A DNA stretch of 64,000 nucleotides, taken from NCBI RefSeq assembly GCF_900156895.1, contig NZ_FTPD01000045.1, positions 62,001 to 126,000 of the forward strand, read 5' to 3'. The notes beneath the pieces are model-generated. The model saw nothing but the letters and a program-made list of their open reading frames with translations, did not search any database and had not been told where the DNA came from. The position numbers were made by a program, and so were the translations under genes. This document shows, one piece after another, positions 8,642 through 55,993 of the stretch. Every line of letters begins with the position of its first letter. Position 1 is the first letter of the stretch. Origin of the DNA: Mesorhizobium prunaredense (GTDB lineage Bacteria > Pseudomonadota > Alphaproteobacteria > Rhizobiales > Rhizobiaceae).

Positions 8642-8749
8642 GGTCAGACGGTTCCGGCATCAAAACTGCAACTGTCGTTCAAATGAAACTGCCCCCCCGG
8701 CCGGTTGACGCTCCGGTGATACTAACGGATTCAAAAAATATGTCGAAAA

Positions 8750-10750: not shown

Positions 10751-10961
10751 GATCACCTCGCAAACACCCTATCAGTTGCCGGCTGCTAGGGACCCGGCTT
10801 CCGGGCCTTATGACATGACGGGTGATCTCGATCAAACTTAGCCAATGAGCAACCACATATTTTGTCGCGCCTCGTCCGTAAGCGCTTTCCAATCATGGCG
10901 GCGGGTGTTGCTTGCGGTTTTCCCACTGGTGAGGCATTTAGAAATCAACAGGAAACAGCGG

Positions 10962-37244: not shown

Positions 37245-39317
37245 ATGAAACGCGAGATAGCCCCCAATCAGATGAAGATCGATGCCCCTCCGGCGCGTAC
37301 TTCGCTGGCCACCGGCCAAATGGCTCTGAGCAACATCGACTATGACGAGCGTGCCACCATGCGCGCCTGGGAAAGTTTTCTGGCTGACGAGCCCAAATGC
37401 GCCGGCGATCCTGTCCCAAGCCACGTCCGCTCCCTCATTCACGATTCCTGGTACCGCAGTGCCACCGGCGGCATCAACGCTCAAGGCATTGAAGCGCCGC
37501 TGAGCAGTGATCGCGACGCGATCGAATATCTGACTCGGGCCAATGCAGAACTGCTTTCGGCGGCGCGGCGGTCGTTCGCCTCGCTTGGCCAGTTACTGGA
37601 CGGGACCGGCGCGATGCTGGTTCTGGCCGACAGCGACGGCGTGCTGATCGACGCCATCGGCGACAAGAAGACGCTGCATGACGGCATGGATATCCACCTT
37701 GCCATCGGCGGCAAATGGAACGAGGATGCCGTCGGGACGAACGGCATCGGTACGGCGCTGTGGACCGGCGAGCCGACTTTCGTGCATGCGGCCGAGCATT
37801 TCTGCGCCGGCATCAAATCCTGGACCTGCGCCGGCGCGCCGATTCGCGACCCGTTGGACGGCAAGATCATCGGTGTGGTCGACCTGTCAGGCTATTCGCC
37901 GATCTTCAGGCCGCACAACACCGCGCTCGTCGCCGCGACAGCCCGGCAGATCGAAAAGGCATTGGCCGAACAGCAGCAGGAACAGCGCACGCGCCTGCTC
38001 GAAGCTTTCATTTCATCGGCTCCCGGCTACCGTCGAAAGGACGGGCTGGTAATCGTCGACCACCGCGGTCGTGCCATCTTCTGCAACAATGTGCCTGATG
38101 GCGAGGCCACTGAGATGATGGACGGCCCGATGGAGCCAGGCCGTGGCCGCTGGCTGATGAACCTTCCGTCCTCCGGCTCCGAAGCCGACCTTGCCAGGGC
38201 GCTGCCGGCCCATCTGCGATCCTGCCATATCACCCCGCTCAAGCTCGATGGCGACCTCCGCGGCGCGGCGCTGGTGTTCCCCTCCGTGCCGGCAGTCTCC
38301 AGCGCGGCGGTGGTCCACCGGGAAGTGAACAAGCATCTTCAAGATGCTGTCGCCATGATCGTCGGCGAAAGCGAAGCGCTGCATGCCGCCATCGACGTCG
38401 CCTGCCGCGTCGCCCGGTCGAGCAGCGTAACATCGCTGTTGGTCGAAGGTGAAACAGGGGTCGGGAAAGAGCTGTTTGCGCGGCTTGTCCATGCCGGCAG
38501 CCGGCGCACGGCGAACGATCCGTTCATCGCCATGAATTGCGGGGCGATCACCAGGGACCTGTTCGGCAGCGAGTTGTTCGGCCATGTCGCCGGCGCCTTT
38601 ACCGGCGCCTCGCGTGAAGGCAAACTGGGGGTTTTCGAGCTCGCCCATGGCGGCGTCCTCAGTCTCGACGAGATCGGCGAATTGCCGCTCGAGATCCAGC
38701 CGTTTCTGCTGCGTGTCCTGGAAGAGCGCGTGGTCAACCGCATTGGCGACAGCCGGGGCCGCCCGGTGGATGTGCGCCTGGTCGCCTCGACCAATCGCGA
38801 TCTCAAGCACGAAATTGACGCAGGCCGTTTCCGCCGCGATCTCTACTATCGAATTGGCGCGGTTTCGATCACTGTTCCACCGCTGCGCGCGCGCGGCGAG
38901 GATGTGCTGCTGCTGGTCGAACATTTCAACCGGCAGATCGCCACCGCAGCTGGCGAGGAGCCGCTGGAATTTTCGCAAGAAGCGCTCGATGCCCTGCTCG
39001 CCTATCATTGGCCGGGCAATGTACGCGAACTGAAGAACCTGATCGGGCGGTTACATGTCCTGGCGCGGGGCCGAGATATCGGGCTCCACGATCTCCCCGG
39101 TGAAATCGCGGCGCCCAGCGCCACGTCCGATGATGGTAAGACCCTGTCGGCCGAGTTGCCTGGAGGCACACTCGTCGAGGCGGAACGCCAGGCGATGAAG
39201 AACGCTTTGGCAGCCGAGGGCGGCAATCTCAGTCGGGTCGCGCGGCGGCTCGGCATTTCCCGGCCGACGCTCTATCGCAAACTCGACCAATACGGCATCC
39301 GGCGGGGTTTCCTCTAG
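37245..39317 (+). CDS. Sigma-54-dependent activator, AcoR/MimR-like
   Basis: 690 residues. An N-terminal GAF-type sensor region (about 70-330; LVLADSDGVLIDAIGD, NEDAVGTNGIGTALW, FCAGIKSWTCAGAPIRDP) precedes an AAA+ domain with Walker A GETGVGKE near residue 402 and the sigma-54 contact loop GAFTGA near residue 449. A Fis-type helix-turn-helix follows at the end (LSRVARRLGISRPTLYRKL). This is the AcoR architecture used for acetoin and for MimR, the activator of mimABCD in mycobacteria. It ends close to the convergent prm operon, whose promoter has a perfect -24/-12 element. The ATG at 37245 has only a distant ribosome site. Confidence 0.88.
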   Translation: MKREIAPNQMKIDAPPARTSLATGQMALSNIDYDERATMRAWESFLADEPKCAGDPVPSHVRSLIHDSWYRSATGGINAQGIEAPLSSDRDAIEYLTRANAELLSAARRSFASLGQLLDGTGAMLVLADSDGVLIDAIGDKKTLHDGMDIHLAIGGKWNEDAVGTNGIGTALWTGEPTFVHAAEHFCAGIKSWTCAGAPIRDPLDGKIIGVVDLSGYSPIFRPHNTALVAATARQIEKALAEQQQEQRTRLLEAFISSAPGYRRKDGLVIVDHRGRAIFCNNVPDGEATEMMDGPMEPGRGRWLMNLPSSGSEADLARALPAHLRSCHITPLKLDGDLRGAALVFPSVPAVSSAAVVHREVNKHLQDAVAMIVGESEALHAAIDVACRVARSSSVTSLLVEGETGVGKELFARLVHAGSRRTANDPFIAMNCGAITRDLFGSELFGHVAGAFTGASREGKLGVFELAHGGVLSLDEIGELPLEIQPFLLRVLEERVVNRIGDSRGRPVDVRLVASTNRDLKHEIDAGRFRRDLYYRIGAVSITVPPLRARGEDVLLLVEHFNRQIATAAGEEPLEFSQEALDALLAYHWPGNVRELKNLIGRLHVLARGRDIGLHDLPGEIAAPSATSDDGKTLSAELPGGTLVEAERQAMKNALAAEGGNLSRVARRLGISRPTLYRKLDQYGIRRGFL

Positions 39318-39504: not shown

Positions 39505-40548
39505 TCAGGGCACGATGACGCCGCGGCCGGTGAACCGCCGGTTCTTGAAATCGTCGAGTGCGGTGTTGATGCTGGCGAGATTGTACTCGGTGTAGTGCAT
39601 CTTCACCTTGCCATCGGCGTTCAGCTCCATCAGTTCGACAAGCTCGGTGAAGTTGCCGACGAGGCTGCCGCCGATGTTGATCTCCTCGATGACGAGATGC
39701 GCGGTCGGTACGTTGATATTGCCGCCATAGCCGACGACGAACAGTTGCCCGCCCTTGCGCACCATCTTCCAGCAGATGTTCTCGACACCGAGTTCACCGA
39801 CGAAATCGATGACGACATGGGCGCCGCCGCCGGTGATTTGGCTGACCTCCTCGACGATGTTCGGGCCACCATCGAGGACGAAGTCGGCGCCGAGATCCTT
39901 GGCCAGCACCTGTGCTGCCGGCTCGCGATCGACGGCGATGATGCGGCAGCCCGAGATCGCGTGCAGCGATTGCAGCGCGATGTGGCCGAGCCCGCCTATG
40001 CCGAGCAGCACACAGTGACTCCCTGGCCTTAGCAGCTTGGCCGCCCGCTTGGCGGCGCGGTAGGCAGTGATGCCGGCGTCAGCCAGCGGCGCCACCTCGA
40101 TCGGCGTGACGTTAGCGTTCAGCTTGATCAACGAACGCTCGCTGGTGATGAAATACTCCGCGAAACCGCCATTCATGCCGAGGCCCGGAAATTGGCCGTT
40201 ATCGCAGTACATATCCTCGCCGTGGCGGCAGTTGAGGCAGATGCCGCACGAGCGGAAGGGGTGGCAGATCACGGCGTCACCGCGCTTGACCGACCTGACG
40301 CCGCTGCCGACCTCCTCGACCCAGCCGGCATTCTCGTGACCCATGATGTAGGGCAACAGCGTGCCTTCGGGGTCCATGGTCGGCTTCCATACACCTTCTA
40401 TGATGTGGAGATCGGTGCGGCACAGGCCGGCGGCGCCGACCCGCACGATCACCTCGTCGGGGGCAGTGATAGTCGGTGCCCTGACCTCCTCGATCCTGAG
40501 CTGGACGTTCATCTTTGGGTCGTATTCGTACAGTCTGGCAGCTTTCAT
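39505..40548 (-). CDS. NAD-dependent zinc alcohol dehydrogenase
   Basis: 347 residues. Catalytic zinc ligands are in AAGLCRTDLHI and IMGHENAGWVE; the structural zinc cluster is CGICLNCRHGEDMYC; the nucleotide-binding loop is VLLGIGGLGHIALQSL. AAGGA lies six bases before the ATG. It is the last gene of the monooxygenase operon, where the Rhodococcus and Mycobacterium propane clusters also place an alcohol dehydrogenase. It would oxidise the alcohol made by the monooxygenase, for example 2-propanol to acetone or a diol intermediate; the exact substrate is inference. Confidence 0.9.
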   Translation of the reverse strand: MKAARLYEYDPKMNVQLRIEEVRAPTITAPDEVIVRVGAAGLCRTDLHIIEGVWKPTMDPEGTLLPYIMGHENAGWVEEVGSGVRSVKRGDAVICHPFRSCGICLNCRHGEDMYCDNGQFPGLGMNGGFAEYFITSERSLIKLNANVTPIEVAPLADAGITAYRAAKRAAKLLRPGSHCVLLGIGGLGHIALQSLHAISGCRIIAVDREPAAQVLAKDLGADFVLDGGPNIVEEVSQITGGGAHVVIDFVGELGVENICWKMVRKGGQLFVVGYGGNINVPTAHLVIEEINIGGSLVGNFTELVELMELNADGKVKMHYTEYNLASINTALDDFKNRRFTGRGVIVP

Positions 40549-40586: not shown

Positions 40587-42218
40587 TCAGGCGCGGCCGA
40601 GCTTTTCAGAGCCGCCACCGCGAGCCGGTCCGGCCGTCGGGTCCTCGTCCTCGGCGAGATGGCCGATCAGCGTTTCGGTGGTCAGGATCAGCGTCGCCAC
40701 CGAAGCTGCGTTGGCGAGTGCTGTGTAGGTGACGCGGACCGGATCAATGATCCCTGCCTCGAACATGTTCTGGTAGCTGCCGGCAGACGCGTTGTAGCCG
40801 TAGCCGCCGTTGATGCGCGTGACTTCCGCCACCACTGCCTCGGGATCGGCGCCGGCGTTGACGGCTATGCGCCAGAGCGGCCGCGACAGCACCGATCGCA
40901 CCAGGCGCACGCCTTCGGCGACATCGCCGTCGACGCCTGCCGCTACCTTGTCGAGCAGCGGCGCGATCTGGGCAAGCGCCGAGCCACCTCCGGCGACCAC
41001 GCCCTCTTCGGATGCGGCGCGCACCGCATTCAGCGAATCCTCGATGAGCTGAATGGTTCGCTTCTGCTCGACCGGCGTGACACCGCCGGCATAGAGAATC
41101 GCAGTGCCGCCAGAAAGCTTGGCCAGGCGTTCGCGCAGCTTGTCCTGATCGATATTCGGCGGCGAAGCTTCATACTGCCGCTGCACCTGAGCGCGACGCG
41201 ACGCGATTGCCGCGTGGTCGCCGCCGCCGCGGATGATCGAGGTGTAAGACGAACTGGTCTTCACCCGGTCAGCCGTTCCGAGGTCGTCGGCGGTGATGTC
41301 CTCCAGCCGGCCGCCGAGGTCGCGCGCGATCACCTTGCCGCCGGTGATGATCGCCAGATCCTCCATCATCGCCTTGCGCCAATGGCCATATTCCGGCGGA
41401 TGGACGACAAGGTATTTTCCAGGTCCCTGCCTGCCGAGCAGCGTCACCACGACTTCCGGCGACATTTCCTCGGACACGATCAGCAGCGGCCGACCGGCCT
41501 CGTCGGCAATGCGGCGAGCCGCATCCAGCGCCTCGGGCTCCTTGATCTTGAGATCGGTCATCAGGATGTAGGGCCGTTCGAGAACCGCCTCCATCTTCTC
41601 CTGATCGGTCACCATGTGGTGCGAGAGATAGCCGCGTTCGAAGGACATGCCCTCGACCACGTCAAGCGTGGTCTCGGTCGTCACGCTGAAGTCAGTGGTG
41701 ATGACGCCTTCGGCCCCTACCCGCTGATGGGCTTCGGCCACCAGTGCGCCAAGCTTGGCATTGGTCGCCGCGATGTTGGCGACCGAGGCGAGAATTCCGT
41801 TGCCCTTGGCCGGCTTGGCCGAAGCCTTGAGCGCCGCCACTACCGCTGTCACGGCAAGGTCGATGCCCTTGCACAGATCGACGGATTTCACGCCGCGTTC
41901 ATTCGCCTCCACACCGCCCTGGATGAGAGCGTTGGCGAGCACGATGGCAGTCGTGGTACCGTCGCCGGCGACCTCGTTGGTTTGCATCGACACTTCGCGA
42001 ACGACCTGCGCGCCCATGTTTTCGAAACGGTCGTGCAATTCGATCTCGGAGGCGATGCTGACACCGTCACGGGTCACCATCGGCGTGCCGATCGGCCGGT
42101 CGATCATGGCGTTCATGCCTTTGGGGCCAAGCGTCGGCTCGACGGCAGCGGCCAGCCGAAAGACGCCACGGGCGAGAGCGCGGCGGGCGTCGGAGTTGTG
42201 AAGCATTACTTTGGGCAT
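40587..42218 (-). CDS. GroEL-like chaperonin dedicated to the monooxygenase
   Basis: 543 residues, full GroEL length, from the ATG at 42218 behind GGAGGAATC. Conserved ATPase sequence GDGTTTAIVLANAL with the catalytic Asp, and EEGVVAGGGSAL near residue 405, are intact. The usual glycine-methionine tail is missing; it ends GGGSEKLGRA. No groES accompanies it. A divergent GroEL copy is a constant part of propane/mim-type monooxygenase clusters, where MimG was shown to be needed for folding the large hydroxylase subunit. A housekeeping role is unlikely. Confidence 0.9.
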   Translation of the reverse strand: MPKVMLHNSDARRALARGVFRLAAAVEPTLGPKGMNAMIDRPIGTPMVTRDGVSIASEIELHDRFENMGAQVVREVSMQTNEVAGDGTTTAIVLANALIQGGVEANERGVKSVDLCKGIDLAVTAVVAALKASAKPAKGNGILASVANIAATNAKLGALVAEAHQRVGAEGVITTDFSVTTETTLDVVEGMSFERGYLSHHMVTDQEKMEAVLERPYILMTDLKIKEPEALDAARRIADEAGRPLLIVSEEMSPEVVVTLLGRQGPGKYLVVHPPEYGHWRKAMMEDLAIITGGKVIARDLGGRLEDITADDLGTADRVKTSSSYTSIIRGGGDHAAIASRRAQVQRQYEASPPNIDQDKLRERLAKLSGGTAILYAGGVTPVEQKRTIQLIEDSLNAVRAASEEGVVAGGGSALAQIAPLLDKVAAGVDGDVAEGVRLVRSVLSRPLWRIAVNAGADPEAVVAEVTRINGGYGYNASAGSYQNMFEAGIIDPVRVTYTALANAASVATLILTTETLIGHLAEDEDPTAGPARGGGSEKLGRA

Positions 42219-42295
42219 GATTCCTCCTTCCGCCTTACGGGCGGGTTGTTGGTTAGGGGCCTCGTGCGAGGGAGGCCGTTGTTTTCGGCTCTGCT

Positions 42296-43096
42296 TCAGG
42301 CGGTCGGCGCGGCTCGTGCCGGCACGCGATCCATGATGAAATCGACCAGTGTCGGTTCGCCGTCGACCACATCCAGTTCCTTGTATCTGGTCTGCTTGAG
42401 CCCACGGCAAAGCGCGCCGTTGAACTCCATATTGACGCGCACACCGCGCAGTTCAGCGAGATGGGCGCCGAGTGCGGCAGTCGGTATGCGTTGCCCTTCC
42501 CAGGTCACGAAGACGGGATCATCCGCCCGGCGGTCGGGAAAACGCTCGATCAGAGCCGCCCGGTATCTCGGCTTCTGTTTGGCCGCTTCGCCCGCCTCGA
42601 GCCGCGCGACGTCGTATGCCGGCAGGTCCATGCCGAGGATTTCCCGATCCGTCAGACCATGCTGCCGGAGGCCCCGCAAAACCGCCTCCTGGCGCCGCTT
42701 GAATGCCTTCATCCTGAAGGTTTCGCGCAAGGCGCCGAGATCCTGATCCTCGGCAAGTTCAGCGAAAATATCGCCGAATGTCTTGCCGGCTGCCATGCCG
42801 CAATTGACCTCTTCCGCGAACATGTGGTCGTGCAGCTTGACGCGATAGGCCGGCGACCATGAGAGTTGGTCGAGCGCCTTGCGGACGCCGTCCAGCATCA
42901 GGAACGCGAAGTTGGGCGAGCACCAGTAGGTCGGCAGGCGGAAATCTATCTCCACGCTGCCATCGCCCGTCATCACGGCTCGCTCGACGAAGCCCATCTC
43001 GGTAATCGGTTCGTCGAGTTCGGGGTCGTTGACCTCACCAAGGCACCGCCAGAGCTCCTTCTCGCGGTTGCCGGAAACGCTGGCGGCGGTTGCCAT
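42296..43096 (-). CDS. DUF59/MIP18-family protein of the monooxygenase cluster
   Basis: 266 residues. The N-terminal 110 residues are a DUF59 (iron-sulfur assembly, PaaD/SufT-like) domain: LGEVNDPELDEPITEMGFVE, then RLPTYWCSPNFAFLMLDGVR with the conserved Cys. The C-terminal 150 residues (ETFRMKAFKRRQEAVLRGLR ... VFVTWEGQRIPT) are particular to this cluster type. DUF59 proteins help load iron or iron-sulfur centres, so it may mature the di-iron hydroxylase or the reductase. It starts 5 bp after the amidohydrolase gene ends. Confidence 0.82.
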   Translation of the reverse strand: MATAASVSGNREKELWRCLGEVNDPELDEPITEMGFVERAVMTGDGSVEIDFRLPTYWCSPNFAFLMLDGVRKALDQLSWSPAYRVKLHDHMFAEEVNCGMAAGKTFGDIFAELAEDQDLGALRETFRMKAFKRRQEAVLRGLRQHGLTDREILGMDLPAYDVARLEAGEAAKQKPRYRAALIERFPDRRADDPVFVTWEGQRIPTAALGAHLAELRGVRVNMEFNGALCRGLKQTRYKELDVVDGEPTLVDFIMDRVPARAAPTA

Positions 43097-43101
43097 GGCC
43101 C

Positions 43102-44124
43102 CTACTCCGCCGCGATGCTGAAGGGCGAACTGGCGAGCGCCTTCTTCTTGGCTGCGATGTCGATGTTGTAGAGACGCGCGGCATTAAGACCGAGGATCTT
43201 CTCCTTGATCTCGTCGGTCAGCTGCACGCCGCGTTCTGCGGCGATGTCGTCGGGGATCTGGTAGGCCCAGAATTTCTCGACCAGCCAGCGTGGCGTCCAG
43301 ATCGCGTAGTCGGAACCGAACAGGATTTTCTCCGGCCCGATCCAGAACAGCAGTTCGGCGATGACCTCGCCGAAATAGCGCGGGCGGGAATGGATGAAGG
43401 GCAGCGCTACCGCAAGCCCGCCATAGACGTTGGTTTCCTGGGTCGCGATCCAGCAGAAATCGTCAAGACGCGGCAAGCCGCAATGCTCGATGATCCAGTT
43501 GAGGCCCTGGAAATCCGTCGCCGCATGATCGACGTCATGCACGTCGAACGCATCCTTGCTGAGCGGCAGGATCGTCGGGCCCTTGTGGACGTGGATGTTC
43601 CTGATGCCAAGCTTGTCGCAGAGTTCGAAGCATTTGTAGGCATCGGGGTCGGTAAGCTTCCAGCCCTTGGAGGCGCCGTTCCATTCGGCCGTGTACATCT
43701 TCACGCCCTTGACGTTGTAGGTCTCCTTGAGGAAATGGATGTACTCAAGCGCCTTCTCACCGTCGCGCGGATCGAAGGCGCCGTTGACGATGAAACGCTC
43801 CGGATAACGCTTGGCCACCTCGGCGTTGCGTTCGATCGTGTTGAAGCCGTTCTTGTAGAAGTCCTTGAGATAGGTCGACTGGACGATCGCCATGTCATCT
43901 GGACCGTCGATGAACAGGTCGCGATAGAGATCGTCGGCGCTGTACTTCTCGAACTTGCTCTTCTCCCACAGCTGGTCCTTGGGGCTCAGCCCCGTGTGAT
44001 AGGCGTAGAAGCAATCGATGAACTGCTTGCCGTGGACATTTTTCTGGTTGTCCGGGCTGCCGTCCCAGAAATGGGTGTGGCCGTCGACCACGAAAATATC
44101 CTTGCCTTCCGGTGTCCTAAACAT
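43102..44124 (-). CDS. Amidohydrolase-family protein of the monooxygenase cluster
   Basis: 340 residues from the ATG at 44124 behind GGAGGAAAG. It is an amidohydrolase_2-type TIM barrel with the HxH metal motif in VVDGHTHFWDG near residue 15, a second His region (NIHVHKGPTILPLSKDAFDV) and the metal Asp in ILFGSDYAIWTPRW near residue 275. Relatives are decarboxylases and hydrolases. An amidohydrolase of this kind sits directly after mimD/prmD in actinobacterial clusters, and its function there is unresolved. An intercistronic hairpin separates it from the monooxygenase genes. Confidence 0.86.
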   Translation of the reverse strand: MFRTPEGKDIFVVDGHTHFWDGSPDNQKNVHGKQFIDCFYAYHTGLSPKDQLWEKSKFEKYSADDLYRDLFIDGPDDMAIVQSTYLKDFYKNGFNTIERNAEVAKRYPERFIVNGAFDPRDGEKALEYIHFLKETYNVKGVKMYTAEWNGASKGWKLTDPDAYKCFELCDKLGIRNIHVHKGPTILPLSKDAFDVHDVDHAATDFQGLNWIIEHCGLPRLDDFCWIATQETNVYGGLAVALPFIHSRPRYFGEVIAELLFWIGPEKILFGSDYAIWTPRWLVEKFWAYQIPDDIAAERGVQLTDEIKEKILGLNAARLYNIDIAAKKKALASSPFSIAAE

Positions 44125-44167
44125 TCTTTCCTCCGCAAGATGCGTGTTGATCGGTTCGGCGTGCCGC

Positions 44168-44188
44168 AATCAGGCGGCACGCCTGATT
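44168..44188. terminator. Intercistronic hairpin between prmD and amidohydrolase
   Basis: AATCAGGC at 44168-44175 and GCCTGATT at 44181-44188 form an 8-bp stem with a five-base loop. The T-run is on the plus strand, so for the minus-strand operon it is a hairpin without a U-tail, and more likely a transcript-processing or stability element than a stop. Confidence 0.5.
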
Positions 44189-44196
44189 TTTTGCCG

Positions 44197-44568
44197 CTAT
44201 TCGATGTATTCGAACATCTCGTCCATGTTGCCGAACAAGATCACGGTGTTGTCGTCGATGCGCACCATCCGCCCGTAGTGGGTCGAGCTGTTGACCTCGA
44301 AGGTTTCCGCCGTCATCTCGCGGCCGAGATATTCGCTGATCTCGTCCATTTTGAAGATCAGTTTGCCGGTGCCGTCGATCCGGATCATCGCCGGTTGGTA
44401 GGTTACGGTTACGTTCGGCTTCAGGCCCATGAATTCAGCGATGGCCCTGGCTTCCACCGAGTCGTTCATGGTGACGCCGCACTGATGCGAAATCGTCTGT
44501 TCGAAGGTGATGTCCTTCATCGCCCTGAAGATGTTGGATTGCGATGCGTCGCGTGCTGCAGTTGACAT
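44197..44568 (-). CDS. prmD: Propane/phenol-type monooxygenase coupling (effector) protein
   Basis: 123 residues from the ATG at 44568 behind GGGAG. The MmoB/DmpM-type effector pattern is seen in GVTMNDSVEARAIAEFMGLK and VTVTYQPAMIRIDGTGKLIF. These cofactor-less proteins bind the hydroxylase and tune oxygen activation and electron transfer. The acidic C-terminus (ILFGNMDEMFEYIE) is cluster-typical. It is the fourth gene in the order large subunit, reductase, small subunit, effector, the prmABCD/mimABCD order. Confidence 0.9.
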   Translation of the reverse strand: MSTAARDASQSNIFRAMKDITFEQTISHQCGVTMNDSVEARAIAEFMGLKPNVTVTYQPAMIRIDGTGKLIFKMDEISEYLGREMTAETFEVNSSTHYGRMVRIDDNTVILFGNMDEMFEYIE

Positions 44569-44585
44569 GACGGTTTCTCCCTGTG

Positions 44586-45644
44586 TCAGCGCTTGAGGCC
44601 AAGTTCGCGGAGTATCTGACCAATCCGTTCCTCGGATTTGGCACGGACATCCGCAAAGGCGACCGGCTTGGAATGCGGCATCGACCAGATCGGCTGCAGG
44701 CCGGTGGCTGCCTTGTCGGCGAGCGCGCCGTGTTTCTCTACCCAGCCCTGGAAGAGCTTCTTGTTCGCCGCGCCGTGCTTCTCGTCGTTGGCGAGCATGT
44801 GCATGAGGTCGATCGTGTTGGCGAGGTTGCGTTCGTAGTCGGCCTCGGCTGCCGAGATCACCGCCGGCGTTATGAAGTCGTGGTTGGCGGCGGCGATCTG
44901 CATCAGGAAGCCTGAGCGGAATGCTTCCCCGACCAGCGGCTCGAAGACGATGTTGATGGCGAAATACTGTTCGAGATAGTCGGTCGCGCCCATGATGGTT
45001 TCGACCGCCTCGCGGGTACCTTGCCAGTTGTTGTCCTCGAGCCAGGCCTTCTTGCCAAGTTCGTCGTCCCAGCCGGGAAGGTCCATGCCGATCTCGGCAA
45101 GGTAGAGCGTGATGTCCTGGGCAAGCCGCAGCTTGTAGGACGAGTTGGTCAGCGTCGCGTTGTTGATCATCTGGGTGTAGCCGTAACGCTGCGCCTGCAT
45201 CAGCGAGGTGCCGAGCCCGAATTCGGAGTGCTTCCAGGCGCCGAGTTGCGTCTGCAGAATCTTGACCCAGGCCTTGTCGAAGGTCTTGGGTGCCCCCGAC
45301 TTGCGGGCGTTGTTGATGACGCTCTGCACCATCGTCTCGATTTTCGACTGGCGCTGGTAGTGCGTGCGTTCCCACTCCTGATCGGGGGCGCGAAAGGCAT
45401 GCCAGTTGGAGCTCTGCGCAGCAGTGTTCTGCTTGACATAAGCGCCCTTGCCGTCGGCAAAGGAGATTATCCAGTCCTGGATCAGGTAACGCTCCGGGTC
45501 AGGCTGTACGTCGACCGTCATGTCTTCGTAGTGCGTGGCGCGCTGGCCCTTCGGGTCGAAATACCGGTACTTCCGGCTGTCGGAATCGGCAAAGATCGCC
45601 GCGCCGGCGGCTCCGGATCCGACTGAACTCGAGATAGCTGGCAT
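44586..45644 (-). CDS. prmC: Monooxygenase hydroxylase small (beta) subunit
   Basis: 352 residues; the ATG at 45644 with GGGAG eight bases upstream is preferred to a GTG at 45653. The fold is the metal-free ferritin-like beta subunit of soluble di-iron monooxygenases: long helices around NSSYKLRLAQDITLYLAEIG, GMDLPGWDDELGKKAWLEDN and FLMQIAAANHDFITPAVISA. It lacks the paired ExxH iron ligands found in the large subunit. It forms the alpha2-beta2 hydroxylase with the product of the gene at 46810. Confidence 0.92.
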   Translation of the reverse strand: MPAISSSVGSGAAGAAIFADSDSRKYRYFDPKGQRATHYEDMTVDVQPDPERYLIQDWIISFADGKGAYVKQNTAAQSSNWHAFRAPDQEWERTHYQRQSKIETMVQSVINNARKSGAPKTFDKAWVKILQTQLGAWKHSEFGLGTSLMQAQRYGYTQMINNATLTNSSYKLRLAQDITLYLAEIGMDLPGWDDELGKKAWLEDNNWQGTREAVETIMGATDYLEQYFAINIVFEPLVGEAFRSGFLMQIAAANHDFITPAVISAAEADYERNLANTIDLMHMLANDEKHGAANKKLFQGWVEKHGALADKAATGLQPIWSMPHSKPVAFADVRAKSEERIGQILRELGLKR

Positions 45645-45694
45645 AGTCTTCACTCCCTTGTTGCAGTTGTGGTTGCAGTTGCGTGGCCGTCCCT

Positions 45695-46756
45695 TCAGTG
45701 GGTCGGCGTAGCACCTGTCGATGTGGTGAACTTGTCGAAGAAGATCCGCTCAGTCTCGAACCCGTTCATGAACAGAACCGGCTGAAGCGCATCAATCATC
45801 GGTGGCGGGCCACAGGCATGGACATCGCCCTGCCCGTCGACCGCAAGTTGCTTGAGCTTGGCGTCGACACTCTGGTGTACGAAACCGCGTTCGCCTTCCC
45901 ATTCGGCGTCATCAGTCGCGTGCGACAGCACGGGAATGAAAGTGACATCCGAATGCTGGCCGATCAGCTCGGCGATCCTGTCGAGATAGAACAGGTCGTT
46001 GCGGGTCCTGGCACCGTAGAAGAAATAGACCGGACGTTTCTCGCCGCTCTTCAGATGGTCGTTGAGGATCGACCAGATCGGCGACATGCCTGAGCCGGCG
46101 CCGACCAGGACTAGGGGTCCTTGCCGTTCTTCCCGACGGAAACAGGTTCCGTAGGGTCCGACGACGGTAACTTCGGCTCCAACCTTGATTCCTCCGGAAT
46201 CGAGTTCTCCAGAGAACTTTCCCTCAGGGTATTTTTTGATGATGAAGCAGAGTTTTTCGGTTTGGTCCGGCGTATTTGCCATGGAGAACGAGCGCGTAAT
46301 CGTCTCCCCTTTTTCCGTGGTAACCGTGATGTCGACATATTGCCCCGCCCAGAACTTTATCGGCGAGCCGAGTTCGATCTCGATGCCGCGAATGTCGTGG
46401 GTCAGGTGCTCGATCAGAGCAATCCGGCCGTTGAACGTCTTCACGGCGATCGCTTTCGCCAAAATCTCCTCGTCGTAGTTGAGAAGCTCGACTTCCAGAT
46501 CGGAGTAGGCGATGCAGCGGCACAAAAGGACGTGGCCGCTCTCCTTCTCCATGTCGTTCAGCGCGAAAGTCGAGTATTTCAGCATGTCGACTTCGCCATC
46601 GAGCAACACGCTCTTGCAGGCCGAGCATTGCCCTTCCTTGCAGCCGTGCGGCAGGGCGATGCCCTGGCGGAACGCAGCGTTGAGCACCGTTTCGCCATGC
46701 TCGACATCGAATTCGACGCCGACCGGGCTGAGCCTGACCGTGTGGGTTTCCGACAT
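45695..46756 (-). CDS. prmB: Monooxygenase reductase (2Fe-2S, FAD, NADH)
   Basis: 353 residues; GGAGG lies five bases before the ATG. A plant-type ferredoxin domain has ligands Cys39, Cys44, Cys47 and Cys79 (HGCKEGQCSACK ... LLCRC). The FAD motif RSFSMA is at 155-160, and the NADH part has LVGAGSGMSPI near 217-227 and VHACGPPPM near the C-terminus. It passes electrons from NADH through FAD and the iron-sulfur cluster to the di-iron hydroxylase. It lies between the two hydroxylase subunit genes, as in mimABCD. Confidence 0.93.
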   Translation of the reverse strand: MSETHTVRLSPVGVEFDVEHGETVLNAAFRQGIALPHGCKEGQCSACKSVLLDGEVDMLKYSTFALNDMEKESGHVLLCRCIAYSDLEVELLNYDEEILAKAIAVKTFNGRIALIEHLTHDIRGIEIELGSPIKFWAGQYVDITVTTEKGETITRSFSMANTPDQTEKLCFIIKKYPEGKFSGELDSGGIKVGAEVTVVGPYGTCFRREERQGPLVLVGAGSGMSPIWSILNDHLKSGEKRPVYFFYGARTRNDLFYLDRIAELIGQHSDVTFIPVLSHATDDAEWEGERGFVHQSVDAKLKQLAVDGQGDVHACGPPPMIDALQPVLFMNGFETERIFFDKFTTSTGATPTH

Positions 46757-46809: not shown

Positions 46810-48483
46810 TCAGTTGCAGGGATTGATCGTGAAGCCGGCCCGGTATTCCGCCAGGTGCTTCTCACGGTCCGCGGGTGACATGGCACGCAGCGCGTTGAGC
46901 GGCGACCCGAGCTTGTTGCCGCGCACGTCGTCCAGCGTCCACATCTCTTTGTCGTCGAAACGCATATGTGGCTGCGGGACCAGCGTCTTGCCGTCGGAGC
47001 GGACGAAGTTCAGGTCCTTGATGGCATCGGCCAGATCCCAGCCGTCATAGAGCGTCTCCCATTCGCGCTTGCCGCTGAAGCGGCCCATCGCGGGCGTCGG
47101 ACGGCCCTGATATTCGTCGGCGAACGCCACGGTAGCAGTCCACTTGTCGAGTTCGTGGGCGAAGGTGTGCAACTGGCCGTAGATCTCGCCGACCACCATG
47201 TCCTCGCGGATCAGGCAGGGTACGAGACAGGACCAGCAGCGGTGCGGGTAGACGTAGCCGACGTCGCTGTTGAACAGCAGCACCTTCTCGCCCTTGTGGC
47301 TGAGCTTGGCGTACCATTTCCAGAAGTCGCCGAATTCGGCGTACCAGCCCGGATACTTGTGCTCGAACCACTCGAAGTCCTTGTCGGTCTGAGCTTCGAT
47401 GCGCCAGAAGTTGACCGGCCAGCCGACCGCGAAGAACTGCCCGACCTTGTGGACGTAATTCTTCTTGGTGATGCGTTCCCAGGCCGCCTGGACGTCGTCG
47501 TGATGGACCTTGATGCCGTATTTCTCGAGCGGCAGCATGTAGGTGCGGTAGTAGTCTTCATAGATCCAGCGGTGCCACATTTCCGCGTAAGACTCCTTGT
47601 TCTTGTCGCGGTTGGTGGTGCCGTATTCGATGAAGGTGCCTATGGCCGCATCGACGATCGCGTGGTTCTGCCAGAAGGCATAGCGCAGGTCGCGCTCGAG
47701 CAGCAGATGATTTTCCGGCTCCTTGAGAGCCGCCATCAGCAGTGAGTGGCCATTACCGATATGCCGGCTCTCGTCGGACTGCACCGACAGGAAGACGGTC
47801 GGCAGCGCATAGTCGCCGTTGCGGGCGGCTTCCGAAGGCATGGCGACAAAGAGCGTGTTGGTAAAGGCGGTTTCGGCCACCACCGTCAGGTACATGCAGG
47901 CGGCAGTCATGGTGTCGCCGGTGATGAAGCCTTCCGCGAACTGCCGGCCAATAGTCGTGGCGTAGCATTTGCCGAAGGCTTCCTCGGTGATGTCGAAGCC
48001 AGCCGGATCGATGTAGTTCTCCATGTACCATTTCTTCAGGTTCATCTGGATCGTCGAGTGCCGGAACTCGTCGATCATCTGCATCGTGAAACCGGTCCTG
48101 AGTTCCTCGCCAGGAGCGATACGGGCGACCATCGCCATCGAGCGGGCAGCCGAGATTTCCGGGAAGGGAATGATCGCCAGAAAGAGTTTCATCCACTCGA
48201 CCCAGCGCGGTTCGACATTGCGGAACATGTCGCCGCGCAGCGCCGCATCCAGCGCGCCGTAGACCCGGTTGTCCTTCTCTTCCTGCATCGGGAAGTAGGA
48301 CCGCAGGACCTGTTTCATCGGGTCGCGCGGTGTCTTGTTGATCTTGTAGTCCGTCGGAAACGTCATCGCTTCCTGAACGTAGGAAGGATTCCAGCCGAGA
48401 TCGGCAATCTTCTTGGTTGCCTCGCCGACGGAAATTCCGCGTTGCGAGGTAATCTTGTTGAGCGTCAGAGACGTCATGGTCAT
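46810..48483 (-). CDS. prmA: Monooxygenase hydroxylase large (alpha) subunit
   Basis: 557 residues. The di-iron site is complete: Glu109 (PFPEISAARS), Glu139/His142 (DEFRHSTIQM), Glu204 (VVAETAFTN) and Glu238/His241 (QSDESRHIGNG). Sequence and gene order match propane-monooxygenase-type enzymes (PrmA/MimA), a group that hydroxylates propane, acetone, phenol or N-nitrosamines depending on the member. The ATG at 48483 is three bases from GGAGG; the ATG at 48477 has better spacing and may be the true start. It is first in an eight-gene operon with a sigma-54 promoter about 290 bp upstream. Confidence 0.93.
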   Translation of the reverse strand: MTMTSLTLNKITSQRGISVGEATKKIADLGWNPSYVQEAMTFPTDYKINKTPRDPMKQVLRSYFPMQEEKDNRVYGALDAALRGDMFRNVEPRWVEWMKLFLAIIPFPEISAARSMAMVARIAPGEELRTGFTMQMIDEFRHSTIQMNLKKWYMENYIDPAGFDITEEAFGKCYATTIGRQFAEGFITGDTMTAACMYLTVVAETAFTNTLFVAMPSEAARNGDYALPTVFLSVQSDESRHIGNGHSLLMAALKEPENHLLLERDLRYAFWQNHAIVDAAIGTFIEYGTTNRDKNKESYAEMWHRWIYEDYYRTYMLPLEKYGIKVHHDDVQAAWERITKKNYVHKVGQFFAVGWPVNFWRIEAQTDKDFEWFEHKYPGWYAEFGDFWKWYAKLSHKGEKVLLFNSDVGYVYPHRCWSCLVPCLIREDMVVGEIYGQLHTFAHELDKWTATVAFADEYQGRPTPAMGRFSGKREWETLYDGWDLADAIKDLNFVRSDGKTLVPQPHMRFDDKEMWTLDDVRGNKLGSPLNALRAMSPADREKHLAEYRAGFTINPCN

Positions 48484-48775
48484 AAGCCTCCACCAGGTTT
48501 GAGCCGCAAGTCCCTTGACCCCGGCATGGAGCGGCGCACAGCACCGCTAGTGAGAGTGCGAACGGCACGACAAAGGGTTGCGCGTTCAGGCGCGACTCAT
48601 GGTCCGGCCATTCAAGTGGATCGTGGCAAAGGTTCTCGAGGCATCTGGCAGGGACCGCGGCGCCAACCGCATATGCGATGGGCGTATCGAAGCGGACGTG
48701 ACCTGCTTCCTCCGTTCCTTCGTTCTTTTGGCACCGCGTCAAAAGCGCGATGGGCTTCTTGTGAAAATGAGCAAC

Positions 48776-48790
48776 GCAAGCGCCGTGCCA
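48776..48790 (-). promoter_or_regulatory. Sigma-54 (-24/-12) promoter of the monooxygenase operon
   Basis: On the minus strand the sequence is TGGCACG-GCGC-TTGC, a perfect match to the TGGCACG-N4-TTGC consensus with GG and GC in the required spacing. It points toward prmA and leaves a leader of about 280 nt. A sigma-54 activator gene lies at the far end of the operon. Confidence 0.8.
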
Positions 48791-48860
48791 ACTTGAAAAT
48801 AGCACCCATGGCAAGGGCTCAAAACAAAATCGCTGCTCTTTCGGCACATAAGCAGATGGT

Positions 48861-48885
48861 CAACTGTAACATTCTTTTACAGTTG
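48861..48885. promoter_or_regulatory. Palindromic upstream activator site candidate
   Basis: CAACTGTAA at 48861-48869 and TTACAGTTG at 48877-48885 are perfect inverted 9-mers separated by 7 bp. The site lies about 70-95 bp upstream of the -24 element, the normal position for an enhancer bound by a Fis-domain sigma-54 activator. The likely ligand is the AcoR-type protein encoded at 37245-39317. Confidence 0.65.
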
Positions 48886-49045
48886 TAACGTACGTCTGTA
48901 ATATTTAACGCCTATTCGCAACTGCAATATATTTAGTTAGCAAGCGCAGCAAGTACAAAAACGAATATCATCTATTCAATTCTTCGTCTTTCTCCACTAT
49001 TTGGGGGTGACGGCCCATGGACGGGCCTCGCGCTGGAGAGAGACC

Positions 49046-49519
49046 ATGCCAAACGATAAAGACAGCCGGGGGCCACCCGAGCCAATGTCCAGTCAGACCG
49101 ACGGCGTCACCGGCGATCTTGTCAGGCTGATGCAGCGCGATCTGGTCTTTGTCATGCGCTTTATGGGCGAGAGCCAACATCGCCTCCAGAGCCACTTCCA
49201 GGACTTCATCCGGGCCGAGCTTGCCGCCGGCGGCGTCACCACGGAAACGCATCCGATGATCCATCTGTTCATCGAGAACCATGCGATCCTGTTGCGCGAC
49301 TTCGTGTTTTCCGGCGTTTCGCTGTCGCGGCAGTTCCGCGTCGAGGAGATCGAGCGCCTTACCGGCGATACGACATCGATGATCCGCGTCGACATCTGGG
49401 ATCAGCTCAAGAGCCACATCGAAACGGCCGAAAAACAGTTCCAGTCGCAGGCCGGCACATTGCCAAAATTGCTGTCGGCTTTCGAAAAACCGCCCGGATC
49501 TTTGGGGAGCGAAAAATGA
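49046..49519 (+). CDS. Unknown protein, first gene of four-gene operon
   Basis: 157 residues, ATG behind GGAGAGAG. It is soluble and predicted mostly helical: DGVTGDLVRLMQRDLVFVMR, then a His-rich middle (TETHPMIHLFIENHAILLRD) and an amphipathic region (IWDQLKSHIETAEKQFQSQA). No known domain was recognised. Its stop overlaps the next start (ATGA), so it is cotranslated with the coiled-coil protein. Sitting divergently from the monooxygenase operon and inside the repeat-bounded block, it may belong functionally to hydrocarbon metabolism, but no sequence motif shows that. Confidence 0.7.
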   Translation: MPNDKDSRGPPEPMSSQTDGVTGDLVRLMQRDLVFVMRFMGESQHRLQSHFQDFIRAELAAGGVTTETHPMIHLFIENHAILLRDFVFSGVSLSRQFRVEEIERLTGDTTSMIRVDIWDQLKSHIETAEKQFQSQAGTLPKLLSAFEKPPGSLGSEK

Positions 49520-49836
49520 CAGGAGGGTCCGATACTGCCAAGCGTGACATGTTGCTCGCTCGCCGGCTCGATCTTGTCGCCAACGTCTCCGCGCTGACTG
49601 CCGAGGCGCTGCGGCTCGATCAGAAACGCGCCGGTATCGAGATGGATGTGCTGCGCCTGGAACTCGAAATCGGCAGGAGCGGCGCCAGCGCGCAACTGGT
49701 GCAGGATTTGCATGAGGCGGAGGAGAGAGCCGCGGCGGTCATGCAGGAAGGCGCAAGGTGCGAGCAACGCATCGCCGCCGCGGAGGGTGAGGTCGAGGAC
49801 GTCGACCGCAGCCTCGCGGCGACGGTGGGTAACTGA
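49516..49836 (+). CDS. Small coiled-coil protein, second gene of unknown operon
   Basis: 106 residues, almost entirely helical with heptad character (VSALTAEALRLDQKRAGIEM, LRLELEIGRSGASAQLVQDL, ERAAAVMQEGARCEQRIAAA). No signal or membrane segment. The start overlaps the previous stop by 4 nt. Such short coiled coils often act as assembly partners or scaffolds. Together with the beta-propeller protein downstream it may form a complex. No family assignment. Confidence 0.7.
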   Translation: MTGGSDTAKRDMLLARRLDLVANVSALTAEALRLDQKRAGIEMDVLRLELEIGRSGASAQLVQDLHEAEERAAAVMQEGARCEQRIAAAEGEVEDVDRSLAATVGN

Positions 49837-49850
49837 CGAAGGGAATGGTC

Positions 49851-50978
49851 ATGAACCAGCACGCGATACAGAACCTGACCTTGTTCGACCTGCTGGCGCG
49901 AAGCTGGCGTCGCCCGTCGGCGATCGCCGACCTGCGCTTCAGCGCCGATGGCTCGACCGTCGCCTTCACGTGCGTGGATGGAACGGTCGCAATTGCCGCA
50001 GTCGCGGACCAGGAGCCGCCGGAGTCGCGGATCAGGGTGAGCGGCGATCTCGGCCGGACAACGATCCGCCCGCGAGAGAGGCCACAGGCACCATTGATCG
50101 CGACCGCTGCGTTGGCGGATGGAGACGTCCCGCTCGCCAGCTACCTTTCCTCCGGCTTCCTCGTTGGAACGGCGGCTGGCGAAGCGGTGCATCTGGCCGC
50201 GGACGGCAATATGATGGAGACGTTGGTCAAGATCGACGGGCCGGTCGTCGCCGTCGACCACAACCCCCGGACGGCCATAACAGCCGTCAGCAACCGGCAG
50301 GATGTCTTCCTGGCACGCGGCCAAGGCGATGCAGTACGACTGCGACACGATGCGACACCGTCCACGGATGCGCTTGCCTTTTCGCCAGGCGGAAGGCGCC
50401 TCGCCCATGGCCTAGGCGACGGATTGTCGATCTGGGCGGTCGACGGCGACGCTACCCCGATACGCGACGTTTCTTTTTCGGCGCGCCCGGTATCGATCCG
50501 CTGGAGTGGAGACGGCACATGGCTGGCCTGTGGGCTCGAAGCCGGAGGCTTTGCCCTGGTCAGCGCGGCCGATGGCCGGATTGACCTTGTCGAGGGATTT
50601 CCATCGCCGGTCCGGACACTGTGCTGGAGCCTGCCGGAGAATGCGCTGTTTGCGTCGGGCGCCTTCCGGATCGCCGGCTGGTCGATGACCGCTCCGCCAC
50701 TTGACGGCGACACCTCGGGCGCGCTGGAGACTGGCCGAGCCGGGCTGGTTCCGGTCGAGACAGTGGCTGCGCACCCGGAGAAAAAACTGATCGCGGCCGG
50801 CTATGCCAACGGCCGGATCACCATCGCCCAGATCGGCGCGCGAGACGAACTCCTCGTCAGGCCGCTGGGCAGCGCGGTGACCGCGCTTGCCTGGTCCGGC
50901 GACGGACGCCACCTAGCAGTGGGCGCAGTCGACGGCACCGCCGCGATCGTGACCTTTCCCGCACAGATGTTCAAATAG
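49851..50978 (+). CDS. Beta-propeller (WD40-like) protein, third gene of unknown operon
   Basis: 375 residues from the ATG at 49851 with AAGGG seven bases upstream. Repeated blade-like units are visible: AIADLRFSADGSTVAFTCVD, TDALAFSPGGRRLAHGLGDG, PVSIRWSGDGTWLACGLEAG and VTALAWSGDGRHLAVGAVDG, about six or seven in all. There is no signal peptide, so it is a cytosolic propeller, probably a protein-protein interaction platform. Cytosolic WD40-like proteins are uncommon in rhizobial catabolic loci. It lies 14 bp after the coiled-coil gene. Confidence 0.75.
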   Translation: MNQHAIQNLTLFDLLARSWRRPSAIADLRFSADGSTVAFTCVDGTVAIAAVADQEPPESRIRVSGDLGRTTIRPRERPQAPLIATAALADGDVPLASYLSSGFLVGTAAGEAVHLAADGNMMETLVKIDGPVVAVDHNPRTAITAVSNRQDVFLARGQGDAVRLRHDATPSTDALAFSPGGRRLAHGLGDGLSIWAVDGDATPIRDVSFSARPVSIRWSGDGTWLACGLEAGGFALVSAADGRIDLVEGFPSPVRTLCWSLPENALFASGAFRIAGWSMTAPPLDGDTSGALETGRAGLVPVETVAAHPEKKLIAAGYANGRITIAQIGARDELLVRPLGSAVTALAWSGDGRHLAVGAVDGTAAIVTFPAQMFK

Positions 50979-51009
50979 CAAAGGCAGCCGCATGCAAAAG
51001 GAGCACAAA

Positions 51010-51183
51010 ATGCAAACCGAACCCACCCCCGAGGACGAGAGCAAGGACGAATTCTTCGAACGGCTCGCCAAGCTGTCGGAAGAAATGGTGGCCAAACACG
51101 GCAAGGATTTCAGTATGGGCGCATTGGTGCTTGCCGCCCGCTGGATTGCCGAAAACCGCGTCGGCCAGTTGAAGACCAACTAA
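51010..51183 (+). CDS. Small acidic protein, fourth gene of unknown operon
   Basis: 57 residues from the ATG at 51010, which has AAGGAG eight bases upstream. The acidic start (TEPTPEDESKDEFFERLAKL) leads into a short helix-rich end (GALVLAARWIAENRVGQLK). It is 31 bp after the propeller gene. The size and charge suggest a small accessory or regulatory subunit. No relatives were recognised. Confidence 0.65.
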   Translation: MQTEPTPEDESKDEFFERLAKLSEEMVAKHGKDFSMGALVLAARWIAENRVGQLKTN

Positions 51184-55254: not shown

Positions 55255-55993
55255 AGTTGAACTTGCAAGCAGGCCGGCTGCTGGCCCCTCGACGAGACCC
55301 CTGCTTCGCGTCGATGGCCTGCAGGGCTGGTACGGCCAGAGCCATGTGCTTCACGGCGTGAGTTTCGAGGTTGGCGAAGGCGAAGTGGTGACGCTGCTCG
55401 GCCGCAATGGCGCCGGCAAGACGACGACACTGAAGGCGATCATGGGGATTCTTTCCAGGCGCTCTGGTTCGGTCACCTATGACGGCCGGGAGACGATCAA
55501 GCTGCCGTCGCGGTTGATCGCACAGATGGGCATCGCCTACTGCCCCGAGGAGCGGGCGATCTTTTCCAGCCTCTCTGTCGAGGAGAATTTGATGCTGCCG
55601 CCGCAGGTGCGCCCTGGTGGGCTCACCGTCGAGCAGATTTTCGAGCTCTTCCCGAACCTGAAGGAACGGCTTTCGAGCCAGGGGACCAAGCTATCAGGCG
55701 GCGAACAGCAGATGCTCGCCATCGGCCGGATCCTGCGGACGGGCGCCAAGCTCTTGCTGCTCGACGAGCCGACCGAAGGGCTTGCGCCGGTCATCGTGCA
55801 GCAGATCGGCCGCACCATTGCCCGGCTCAAGGAGGAGGGATTCACGATCGTGCTCGTCGAACAGAATTTTCATTTCGCCGCGTTGGTCGCGGACCGTCAC
55901 TATGTGGTGGAACAGGGGCGCGTGATCGACACCATCCCCAACCACGAACTCGACGCCAACATCGACAAGCTGCACGCCTATCTCGGCGTCTAG
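55247..55993 (+). CDS. livF: Branched-chain-amino-acid-type ABC importer ATPase LivF
   Basis: 248 residues from the ATG at 55247, inside the end of livG. Walker A GRNGAGKTT, signature LSGGEQQM, Walker B LLLLDEPTEGL and the switch-His replaced by Gln in VLVEQNFHFA, as is usual in LivF, are visible. It follows the conserved LivF layout (VSFEVGEGEVVTLLGRNG). It pairs with LivG beneath the LivH/LivM membrane complex. Confidence 0.9.
   Translation: MPEVELASRPAAGPSTRPLLRVDGLQGWYGQSHVLHGVSFEVGEGEVVTLLGRNGAGKTTTLKAIMGILSRRSGSVTYDGRETIKLPSRLIAQMGIAYCPEERAIFSSLSVEENLMLPPQVRPGGLTVEQIFELFPNLKERLSSQGTKLSGGEQQMLAIGRILRTGAKLLLLDEPTEGLAPVIVQQIGRTIARLKEEGFTIVLVEQNFHFAALVADRHYVVEQGRVIDTIPNHELDANIDKLHAYLGV

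Follow-up and report, generated by a model that had tools for sequence, protein, structure and literature searches.

We found that four plus-strand genes at positions 49046-51183 of a 64,000-nucleotide stretch of Mesorhizobium prunaredense DNA (contig NZ_FTPD01000045.1, 62,001 to 126,000; hereafter the window) form a conserved unit that is tied to the propane monooxygenase-like operon facing it. The genes, which we call g1 to g4, appear to be a conserved set of accessories to an enzyme of a known class, a set that has so far apparently gone undescribed; we found no published account of it in a search that was limited and does not establish its absence from print. With moderate confidence, we read g1-g4 as encoding dedicated accessory proteins for the assembly or activation of the adjacent PrmABCD enzyme and not a separate system.

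Across genomes, the module and the hydroxylase gene prmA occurred together. We sampled the window's order evenly, drawing 297 genomes, and searched them for prmA at E ≤ 1e-120 and for g4 at E ≤ 0.01; each gene was present in 20 genomes and 19 genomes had both (Fisher p ~9e-28, uncorrected for relatedness). The two genes lay on one contig and within ~12 kb of each other in 17 of these 19 and were split between contigs in G097 and G527. The contig of the prmA-only genome (G629) stops just after g1, and the g4-only genome (G650) holds a g4 with stops and no trace of prmA on its 8,917-base contig. A second sample comprised 101 genomes, the window's own and its relatives, and overlaps in species with the named records; at a prmA threshold of E ≤ 1e-100, g1 was found in 26 of them and prmA in 25, the two sets being the same except for G007, where the 3,339-base contig with g1 breaks off within prmA.

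The named records, among which the closest relatives by g1 are Mesorhizobium species, showed prmA or a piece of it adjoining g1 in 65 of 66 loci. Two of these 65 loci (L103 and L105) hold contig-end pieces and one (L076) a truncated prmA; in the remaining locus (L101), the contig begins 56 bases before g1. All 66 g1 loci carry g2 and g3, and 64 carry g4, the two misses (L105 and L118) being contig ends, with g4 present on another contig of the L118 genome. Among collected plasmids, g4 is present in each of the 10 records whose prmA is at least 83% identical (the Shinella HZN7 prmA being partial), and prmA was present in 11 of the 13 g4 records, the other two of which, from Rhizobium CB3171 and Phyllobacterium, appear decayed. 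At wider range, a g1 profile detected only the window's own genome among 385 class-wide genomes, and no g1 relatives were found among viral contigs. At the order-level thresholds, 398 phylum-wide genomes yielded prmA in four, all of the window's genus, and g4 in eight, four of them of that genus. The only strong g4 match outside the genus in this set was G1003 (E 2e-15); matches in G935, G910 and G1017, with E values of 2e-4 to 0.007 over 18-27 aligned positions, were judged to be chance. The strong g4 matches that we examined had prmA or a decayed relic of it in the same genome or record, save for G650 and a Phyllobacterium locus (L156).

Hence g1-g4 form a set tied to prmABCD, as 65 of 66 g1 loci and the 19 genomes common to two sets of 20 indicate, and, contig ends aside, g1 was found beside prm loci only and not in unrelated contexts. 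The independent "undescribed system" that a preliminary description of this DNA had proposed was not supported by this comparison, as the module was not found in contexts unrelated to prm, in searches that did not extend to the PADLOC and PHROGs libraries, and the g4 of outgroups lies directly upstream of prmA. In two such outgroup loci (L184 and L185), a g2-like open reading frame (ORF) and then g4 directly precede prmA on the same strand. In Caballeronia (L151), where the order is a g2-like ORF, g3, g4 and then prmA, g4 is likewise directly upstream of prmA, and it is encoded with the hydroxylase in all three loci. Since g4 and the g2-like ORF, once with g3, directly precede prmA in outgroups, the module looks like a monooxygenase accessory. 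Judged from gene content and order, the module is placed, inherited and mostly lost together with prmA, and its genomic dependence on prmA is strong.

The composition of the module suggests a stepwise growth. Beyond the outgroup arrangements, Ponticoccus, Paracoccus and L177 carry g2-g3-g4 with an additional opposite-strand gene, g5, and without a detected g1, and Rhizobiales and Gemmobacter carry g1-g4 with or without g5. Mapping the full-module label onto a PrmA tree of 43 rows required 6 changes, compared to a mean of 10.6 upon shuffling, and none of 500 shuffles was as low. Because near-copies favor a low change count, the deep forks of the tree are open and two rows are labelled unknown, the order of gain is a reading and not a proof.

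The product of g5 is a protein of ~90 amino acids (aa), encoded on the strand opposite to the module, either in between g1 and g2 or as a neighbor of g2 (L103, 1109-1369; L096, 10453-10713; L146, 12381-12656; L150, 10886-11161). It was present in 13 of the 66 g1 loci (Rhizobium, Aminobacter, Sinorhizobium, metagenome-assembled genomes and the more diverged Mesorhizobium), a count taken from the g1-locus survey, as an iterated g5 profile took up over-long or spurious frames. It also occurs on Rhodobacterales and Shinella plasmids.

In the window, all four plus-strand ORFs of the preliminary description were confirmed. The first, g1 (49046-49519), encodes a helical protein of 157 aa that matched no family and overlaps by 4 nucleotides (nt) with g2 (49516-49836; 106 aa, probably helical, with a possible coiled coil). 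For g3 (49845-50978; 375-377 aa), the alignment of relatives favors a start at the ATG at 49851 (375 aa) over a start at 49845 (377 aa). For g4, of the possible starts at 50992 (63 aa) and 51010 (57 aa), the latter is used by most relatives and is the most likely, giving a gene at 51010-51183 and, as had been described, a 57-aa acidic protein with a net charge of -3. Shine-Dalgarno-like stretches were seen by eye before g1, g3 and g4. The ratios of nonsynonymous to synonymous substitution (dN/dS), as medians per gene against 17 Mesorhizobium relatives, were 0.151 for g1, 0.360 for g2 (maximum 0.618), 0.222 for g3 and 0.058 for g4, which is the most constrained and the most widespread of the set. 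As dN/dS stayed below 1 and the gene order is conserved across genera, g1-g4 are genuine genes that form a conserved unit.

The block of repeats within which the module had been said to lie was not recovered within 34000-64000. Searching this interval for repeats of at least 28 nt, we found one inverted pair that brackets the module (41416-41450 and 55385-55419; 35 nt, 77% complementary), which we take to be chance, as the match is weak and one arm falls within the GroEL-like gene; the only direct repeat family (44680 and 46068) does not bracket the module.

None of the four proteins had been recognized from the sequence, and this still holds for g1, g2 and g4, which stayed below every Pfam cut-off, but not for g3. 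The g3 product scored 49.5 bits against the Pfam WD40 family (cut-off 27), and its AF2 model (pLDDT 90.4, pTM 0.90) has a propeller fold, so that the WD40 propeller of about 375 residues is predicted confidently. The closest structural matches by VIA-align were TBL1XR1 (Z 36.9), ODA16 (35.5), Rsa4 (35.3), Fbw7 (32.5) and Sqt1 (32.0), with a titled eight-bladed design, Tako8, at Z 31.5 and the PkwA WD40 domain lower at Z 25.7. The TMq of the model was 0.59 with a titled 7-bladed design and 0.70 with TBLR1, and a strand count by eye on the DSSP line gave eight sets. Eight-bladed propellers, which we take the other top structural matches to be as well, are thus the best matches of g3.

The g1 protein gave no match in Pfam or NCBIfam, and a scan of 35 members produced scattered weak Pfam matches only. 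Across these 35 aligned members, His50, His69, His124 and the motif R114-V-D-x-W-D119 are invariant; the protein had been called His-rich, which with 6 His in 157 residues it is only mildly. Its AF2 model is helical at low confidence (pLDDT 73.5, pTM 0.44), and none of its 51 Foldseek matches reached E ≤ 0.001; for these two reasons, we assign no fold to g1. The matches of g2 in Pfam and NCBIfam were all below cut-off. The coiled coil ascribed to g2 is plausible, although its helical hydrophobicity periodicity was equalled by 247 of 2000 shuffles. For g4, a Pfam scan of 29 members at E ≤ 10 gave nothing above cut-off; the alignment of relatives shows a core of SKDxFFxxLAxLSEEMVAxHGKDFSMGALVLAARWIAE. 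The weak Pfam matches of g1, g2 and g4 (ERM_helical, ImpA_N, SLFN_GTPase-like, TAFII55_N and others; best E 0.012, each in one or two members) were discarded as sub-cut-off, as were weak NCBIfam matches of g2 and g3 (best E 0.012).

The operon opposite g1-g4 is a complete di-iron monooxygenase operon on the minus strand, with a sigma-54 activator gene beyond it. It starts with prmA (46810-48483), encoding the hydroxylase alpha subunit of a soluble di-iron monooxygenase (557 aa; PF02332, 209.9 bits), followed by prmB (45695-46756; 2Fe-2S/FAD reductase) and prmC (44586-45653; hydroxylase beta subunit), both identified by domain search, and by prmD (44197-44583; MmoB/DmpM coupling protein, start provisional). 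Next come genes for an amidohydrolase (43102-44169; PF04909, start provisional), a DUF59/FeS_assembly_P protein (42296-43096; PF01883, 34.6 bits, cut-off 23.5), a GroEL-like chaperonin (40587-42323; PF00118, start provisional) and a zinc alcohol dehydrogenase (ADH; 39505-40548, by domain search). The AcoR-like sigma-54 activator, with GAF, AAA+ and Fis-type helix-turn-helix domains, is encoded on the plus strand at 37245-39317. With two PF02332 matches, PF02406 and PF00111/PF00970/PF00175 in one operon, the enzyme classifies as a soluble di-iron monooxygenase. PrmA is 64% identical to the Rhodococcus and 76% to the Methylocella protein (plasmid copies), compared to 33-39% to eight other plasmid matches, and the operon appears, from its sequence, to encode a group V-like propane monooxygenase.

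Group V prmABCD loci, as grouped in PMC9213486, include those of Gordonia TY-5, Rhodococcus and Methylocella. The operon shares with such loci PrmA, PrmB, PrmC, PrmD and the GroEL-like protein, and with some of them also the amidohydrolase and the Fe-S assembly gene. The GroEL-like gene was present in the examined loci that have a complete prmABCD and enough flanking sequence; in L178, L179 and L185, it directly follows prmD, the amidohydrolase and DUF59 genes being absent in between.

We infer a role in assembly from the position of g4 and the g2-like ORF upstream of prmA, from the constancy of the GroEL-like gene and from the need of di-iron monooxygenases for helper proteins. Together with the operon's GroEL-like chaperonin, g1-g4 would help to assemble, metallate or activate the PrmAC hydroxylase. 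In such a scheme, g4 would be a small hydroxylase-binding protein with a role like that of MmoD in methane monooxygenase or of DmpK, the accessory protein of phenol hydroxylase; g2 would serve as a helical co-factor, with MmoE/Orf1 as its counterpart; g3 would provide the platform that holds g2, g4 and the hydroxylase; and g1 would be a later addition. The full version of this proposal, in which a complex of an eight-bladed WD40 propeller, two or three small partner proteins and a chaperonin of its own builds and metallates PrmAC and has grown stepwise from a two-gene core, is one that we put forward as a speculation with a low chance of being right in all its parts. Such a g3-based complex would be a bacterial counterpart, in style, of the dedicated WD40 assembly chaperones of eukaryotes. 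Two of these, Rsa4 and Sqt1, which are WD40 assembly chaperones of the eukaryotic ribosome, resemble g3 in fold (VIA Z 35.3 and 32.0); however, they are only 14% identical to it and their clients and partners are unrelated, and a common fold implies no function.

The soluble methane monooxygenase, with MmoD, MmoE/Orf1 and MmoG, offers a comparison, as there too a small accessory, a helical protein and a chaperonin are encoded with a di-iron monooxygenase. According to excerpts of PMC9324122, GroES/EL is required for production of the methane monooxygenase hydroxylase (MMOH), MmoE is predicted to consist of two long helices and has been considered as a chaperonin lid, and MmoD and MmoG have proposed roles in assembling the active site, in activity and in folding; an excerpt of PMC13045389 describes MMOD as an inhibitory component that binds the hydroxylase canyon. 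Unlike in the module, no WD40 partner is mentioned in these excerpts, and no sequence match of the methane monooxygenase accessories to g1-g4 was detected in the family-profile searches. Like g4 in L184, L185 and Caballeronia, DmpK is small and has its gene immediately ahead of that of the hydroxylase. The likeness of g4 to MmoD and DmpK, and of g2 to MmoE, would be one of role and position.

Several observations weigh against the assembly reading. Neither the MmoD nor the DmpK family was among the Pfam matches of the 29 g4 members at E ≤ 10, which also sets g4 apart from DmpK, and neither g2 nor g4 matched a named assembly factor in sequence (Pfam for both, and NCBIfam). The fetched loci of Azospirillum (PrmA 78% identical), Methylocella and Rhodococcus lack g1-g4, and Skermanella has g4 alone, after GroEL, which distinguishes the window from these group V loci; since the first three do without it, the module is not needed for every such enzyme. 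The g2 profile matched the outgroup g2-like ORFs weakly, with E values of 1.7e-4 (L185) and 0.08 (L184) in a three-sequence search, so that their identity as g2 rests partly on position. In L076 (Mesorhizobium ES1-4), g1-g4 persist next to a truncated prmA, the other operon genes being absent. In L098, prmA is 98% identical to that of the window, compared to 61% for g1 and 50% for g3, which speaks against tight co-evolution and suggests recombination at the divergent promoter. Finally, as detailed below, no sigma-54 site toward g1 stands out in the divergent arrangement.

Regulation is where the first competing explanation would place the module: g1-g4 would sense the substrate or the state of the enzyme and, in response, adjust the sigma-54 activator or the conserved prmA promoter and leader. 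The two transcription units indeed diverge as originally described, over an intergenic region of 562 bp (48484-49045) that contains a long conserved prmA leader, a sigma-54 promoter and TGTAA/TTACA repeats. A -24/-12 element directed toward prmA (TGGCACGGCGCTTGCG; 48775-48790, minus strand) fits the consensus at 11 of 12 positions, and a site scoring at least 10/12 was found in 68 of 68 intergenic regions, with 12/12 in 57. The repeats at 48861-48902 (CAACTGT-N11-ACAGTTG and CTGTAAT), parts of which are conserved in 30 aligned regions, may be activator sites. The leader (48484-48765, minus strand; ~280 nt) holds the blocks AGAACGAAGG and CCTTTGCC, kept in 15 aligned relatives; considered as a structured RNA, it had no Rfam counterpart at E values up to 1, and its folding energy is not unusual (z -0.55). 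Toward g1, the best sigma-54 scores were 0-9, within the range of mononucleotide shuffles, and as no site stands out there, co-induction of the module with prmA is not established. In L185, a 10/12 site before the g2-like ORF indicates that a common transcript may cover this ORF, g4 and prmA; in Caballeronia, with sites before adh (10/12) and between g4 and prmA (11/12), g4 and prmA are perhaps transcribed separately.

Gene order speaks for such a regulatory role to some extent. In most loci, g1 faces prmA over the divergent promoter, and a sigma-54 activator gene is close to most prm loci; in Bradyrhizobium CB82, G492 and G527, the module lies downstream of the activator gene, with g1 directly after it in CB82 and G527. 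An RpoN gene sits beside g4 or one gene away from it in three Rhodobacterales plasmids. However, the Pfam and NCBIfam searches recognized neither a DNA-binding nor a sensor domain above cut-off in g1, g2 or g4, Azospirillum and Methylocella retain both activator and promoter in the absence of the module, and in the outgroups g4 and the g2-like ORF are upstream of prmA on its own strand. We consider a regulatory module possible but not probable. The annotated RpoN genes of the three examined Rhodobacterales plasmid loci lie at 15383-16669 (L146), 10183-11442 (L149) and 7834-9096 (L150), and the prm operon of these bacteria may bring its own sigma factor.

A somewhat less probable role is that of a scaffold or metabolon, where g3 and its partners would hold PrmABCD together with the ADH and the amidohydrolase or would position the enzyme in the cell. 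WD40 propellers are generic interaction platforms, the g3 model is confident, and an ADH gene adjoins the set in L184 and Caballeronia. Yet L184 and L185 have g4 and the g2-like ORF without g3, and L185 and L179 have no amidohydrolase gene, so that no fixed set of scaffold partners emerges.

Metal delivery in the manner of the cytosolic iron-sulfur assembly (CIA) machinery, with g3 and the DUF59 protein of the operon loading the reductase cluster or the di-iron site, appears very unlikely. In the eukaryotic CIA targeting complex, the WD40 protein CIA1 pairs with the DUF59 protein CIA2, and the island does encode both a WD40 propeller and a DUF59 protein above the Pfam cut-off. However, the presence of the two is uncoupled in both directions, which weakens this idea: L179 has g3 and no DUF59 gene between prmD and groEL, in L184 and Rhodococcus L155, DUF59 is present and g3 was not detected, and L185 shows neither. 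Furthermore, CIA1 is seven-bladed, whereas g3 is best matched by eight-bladed propellers. Mere hitchhiking of unrelated genes on the same mobile island, which is found on plasmids and sometimes beside insertion sequence (IS) elements, is the least credible option, given the purifying selection on g1-g4 and the fact that, in several arrangements, g3 and g4 stay close to prmA across Hyphomicrobiales, Rhodobacterales and Burkholderiales.

Loci in which the unit has been rearranged or is breaking down were also found. The module is usually divergent from prmA; in Ponticoccus, it is on the strand of prmA with the RpoN gene in between. In Rhizobium CB3171, the match to prmA is confined to its last 37 residues and adjoins a g3 without a start, which looks like a single deletion that runs from prmA through g1 and g2 into the beginning of g3. 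Beside its g4, G1003 has prmA and g3 in broken pieces. In Phyllobacterium L156, g3 lacks approximately its first 34 residues and is abutted by ORFs read as transposase pieces, the stretch has ISL3 transposase genes on its flanks, and the fetched sequence contained no prmA match. In L076 and L039, whose contigs are equally long and probably belong to one strain, prmA spans ~508 of 557 residues, prmC to adh were not found and g1-g4 are kept, reflecting either a decaying operon or an assembly join. On the Shinella HZN7 plasmid pShin-04 (L148, 8089-10405), an IS21 pair (istA/istB) adjoins the partial prmA, and g1-g4 and g5 are retained downstream. Genes for VOC-family, Tat-signal or gluconate-dehydrogenase-like and GMC oxidoreductase proteins recur near prm loci (L156, 15251-17935; L152, 10422-13055; L153, 23636-26237; L149, 21997-24543), in Phyllobacterium near the module remnant alone.

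Overall, g1-g4 travel with a propane-oxidizing enzyme through many soil bacteria and are probably helpers that build, steady or control it. The loci provide a natural series for dissecting each protein, from no module through g4, the g2-like ORF with g4, and g2-g3-g4 to g1-g4. Di-iron monooxygenases oxidize propane, methane and pollutants and are hard to produce in foreign hosts, and a conserved, unannotated helper set tied to one clade offers a partial explanation of this that can be tested.

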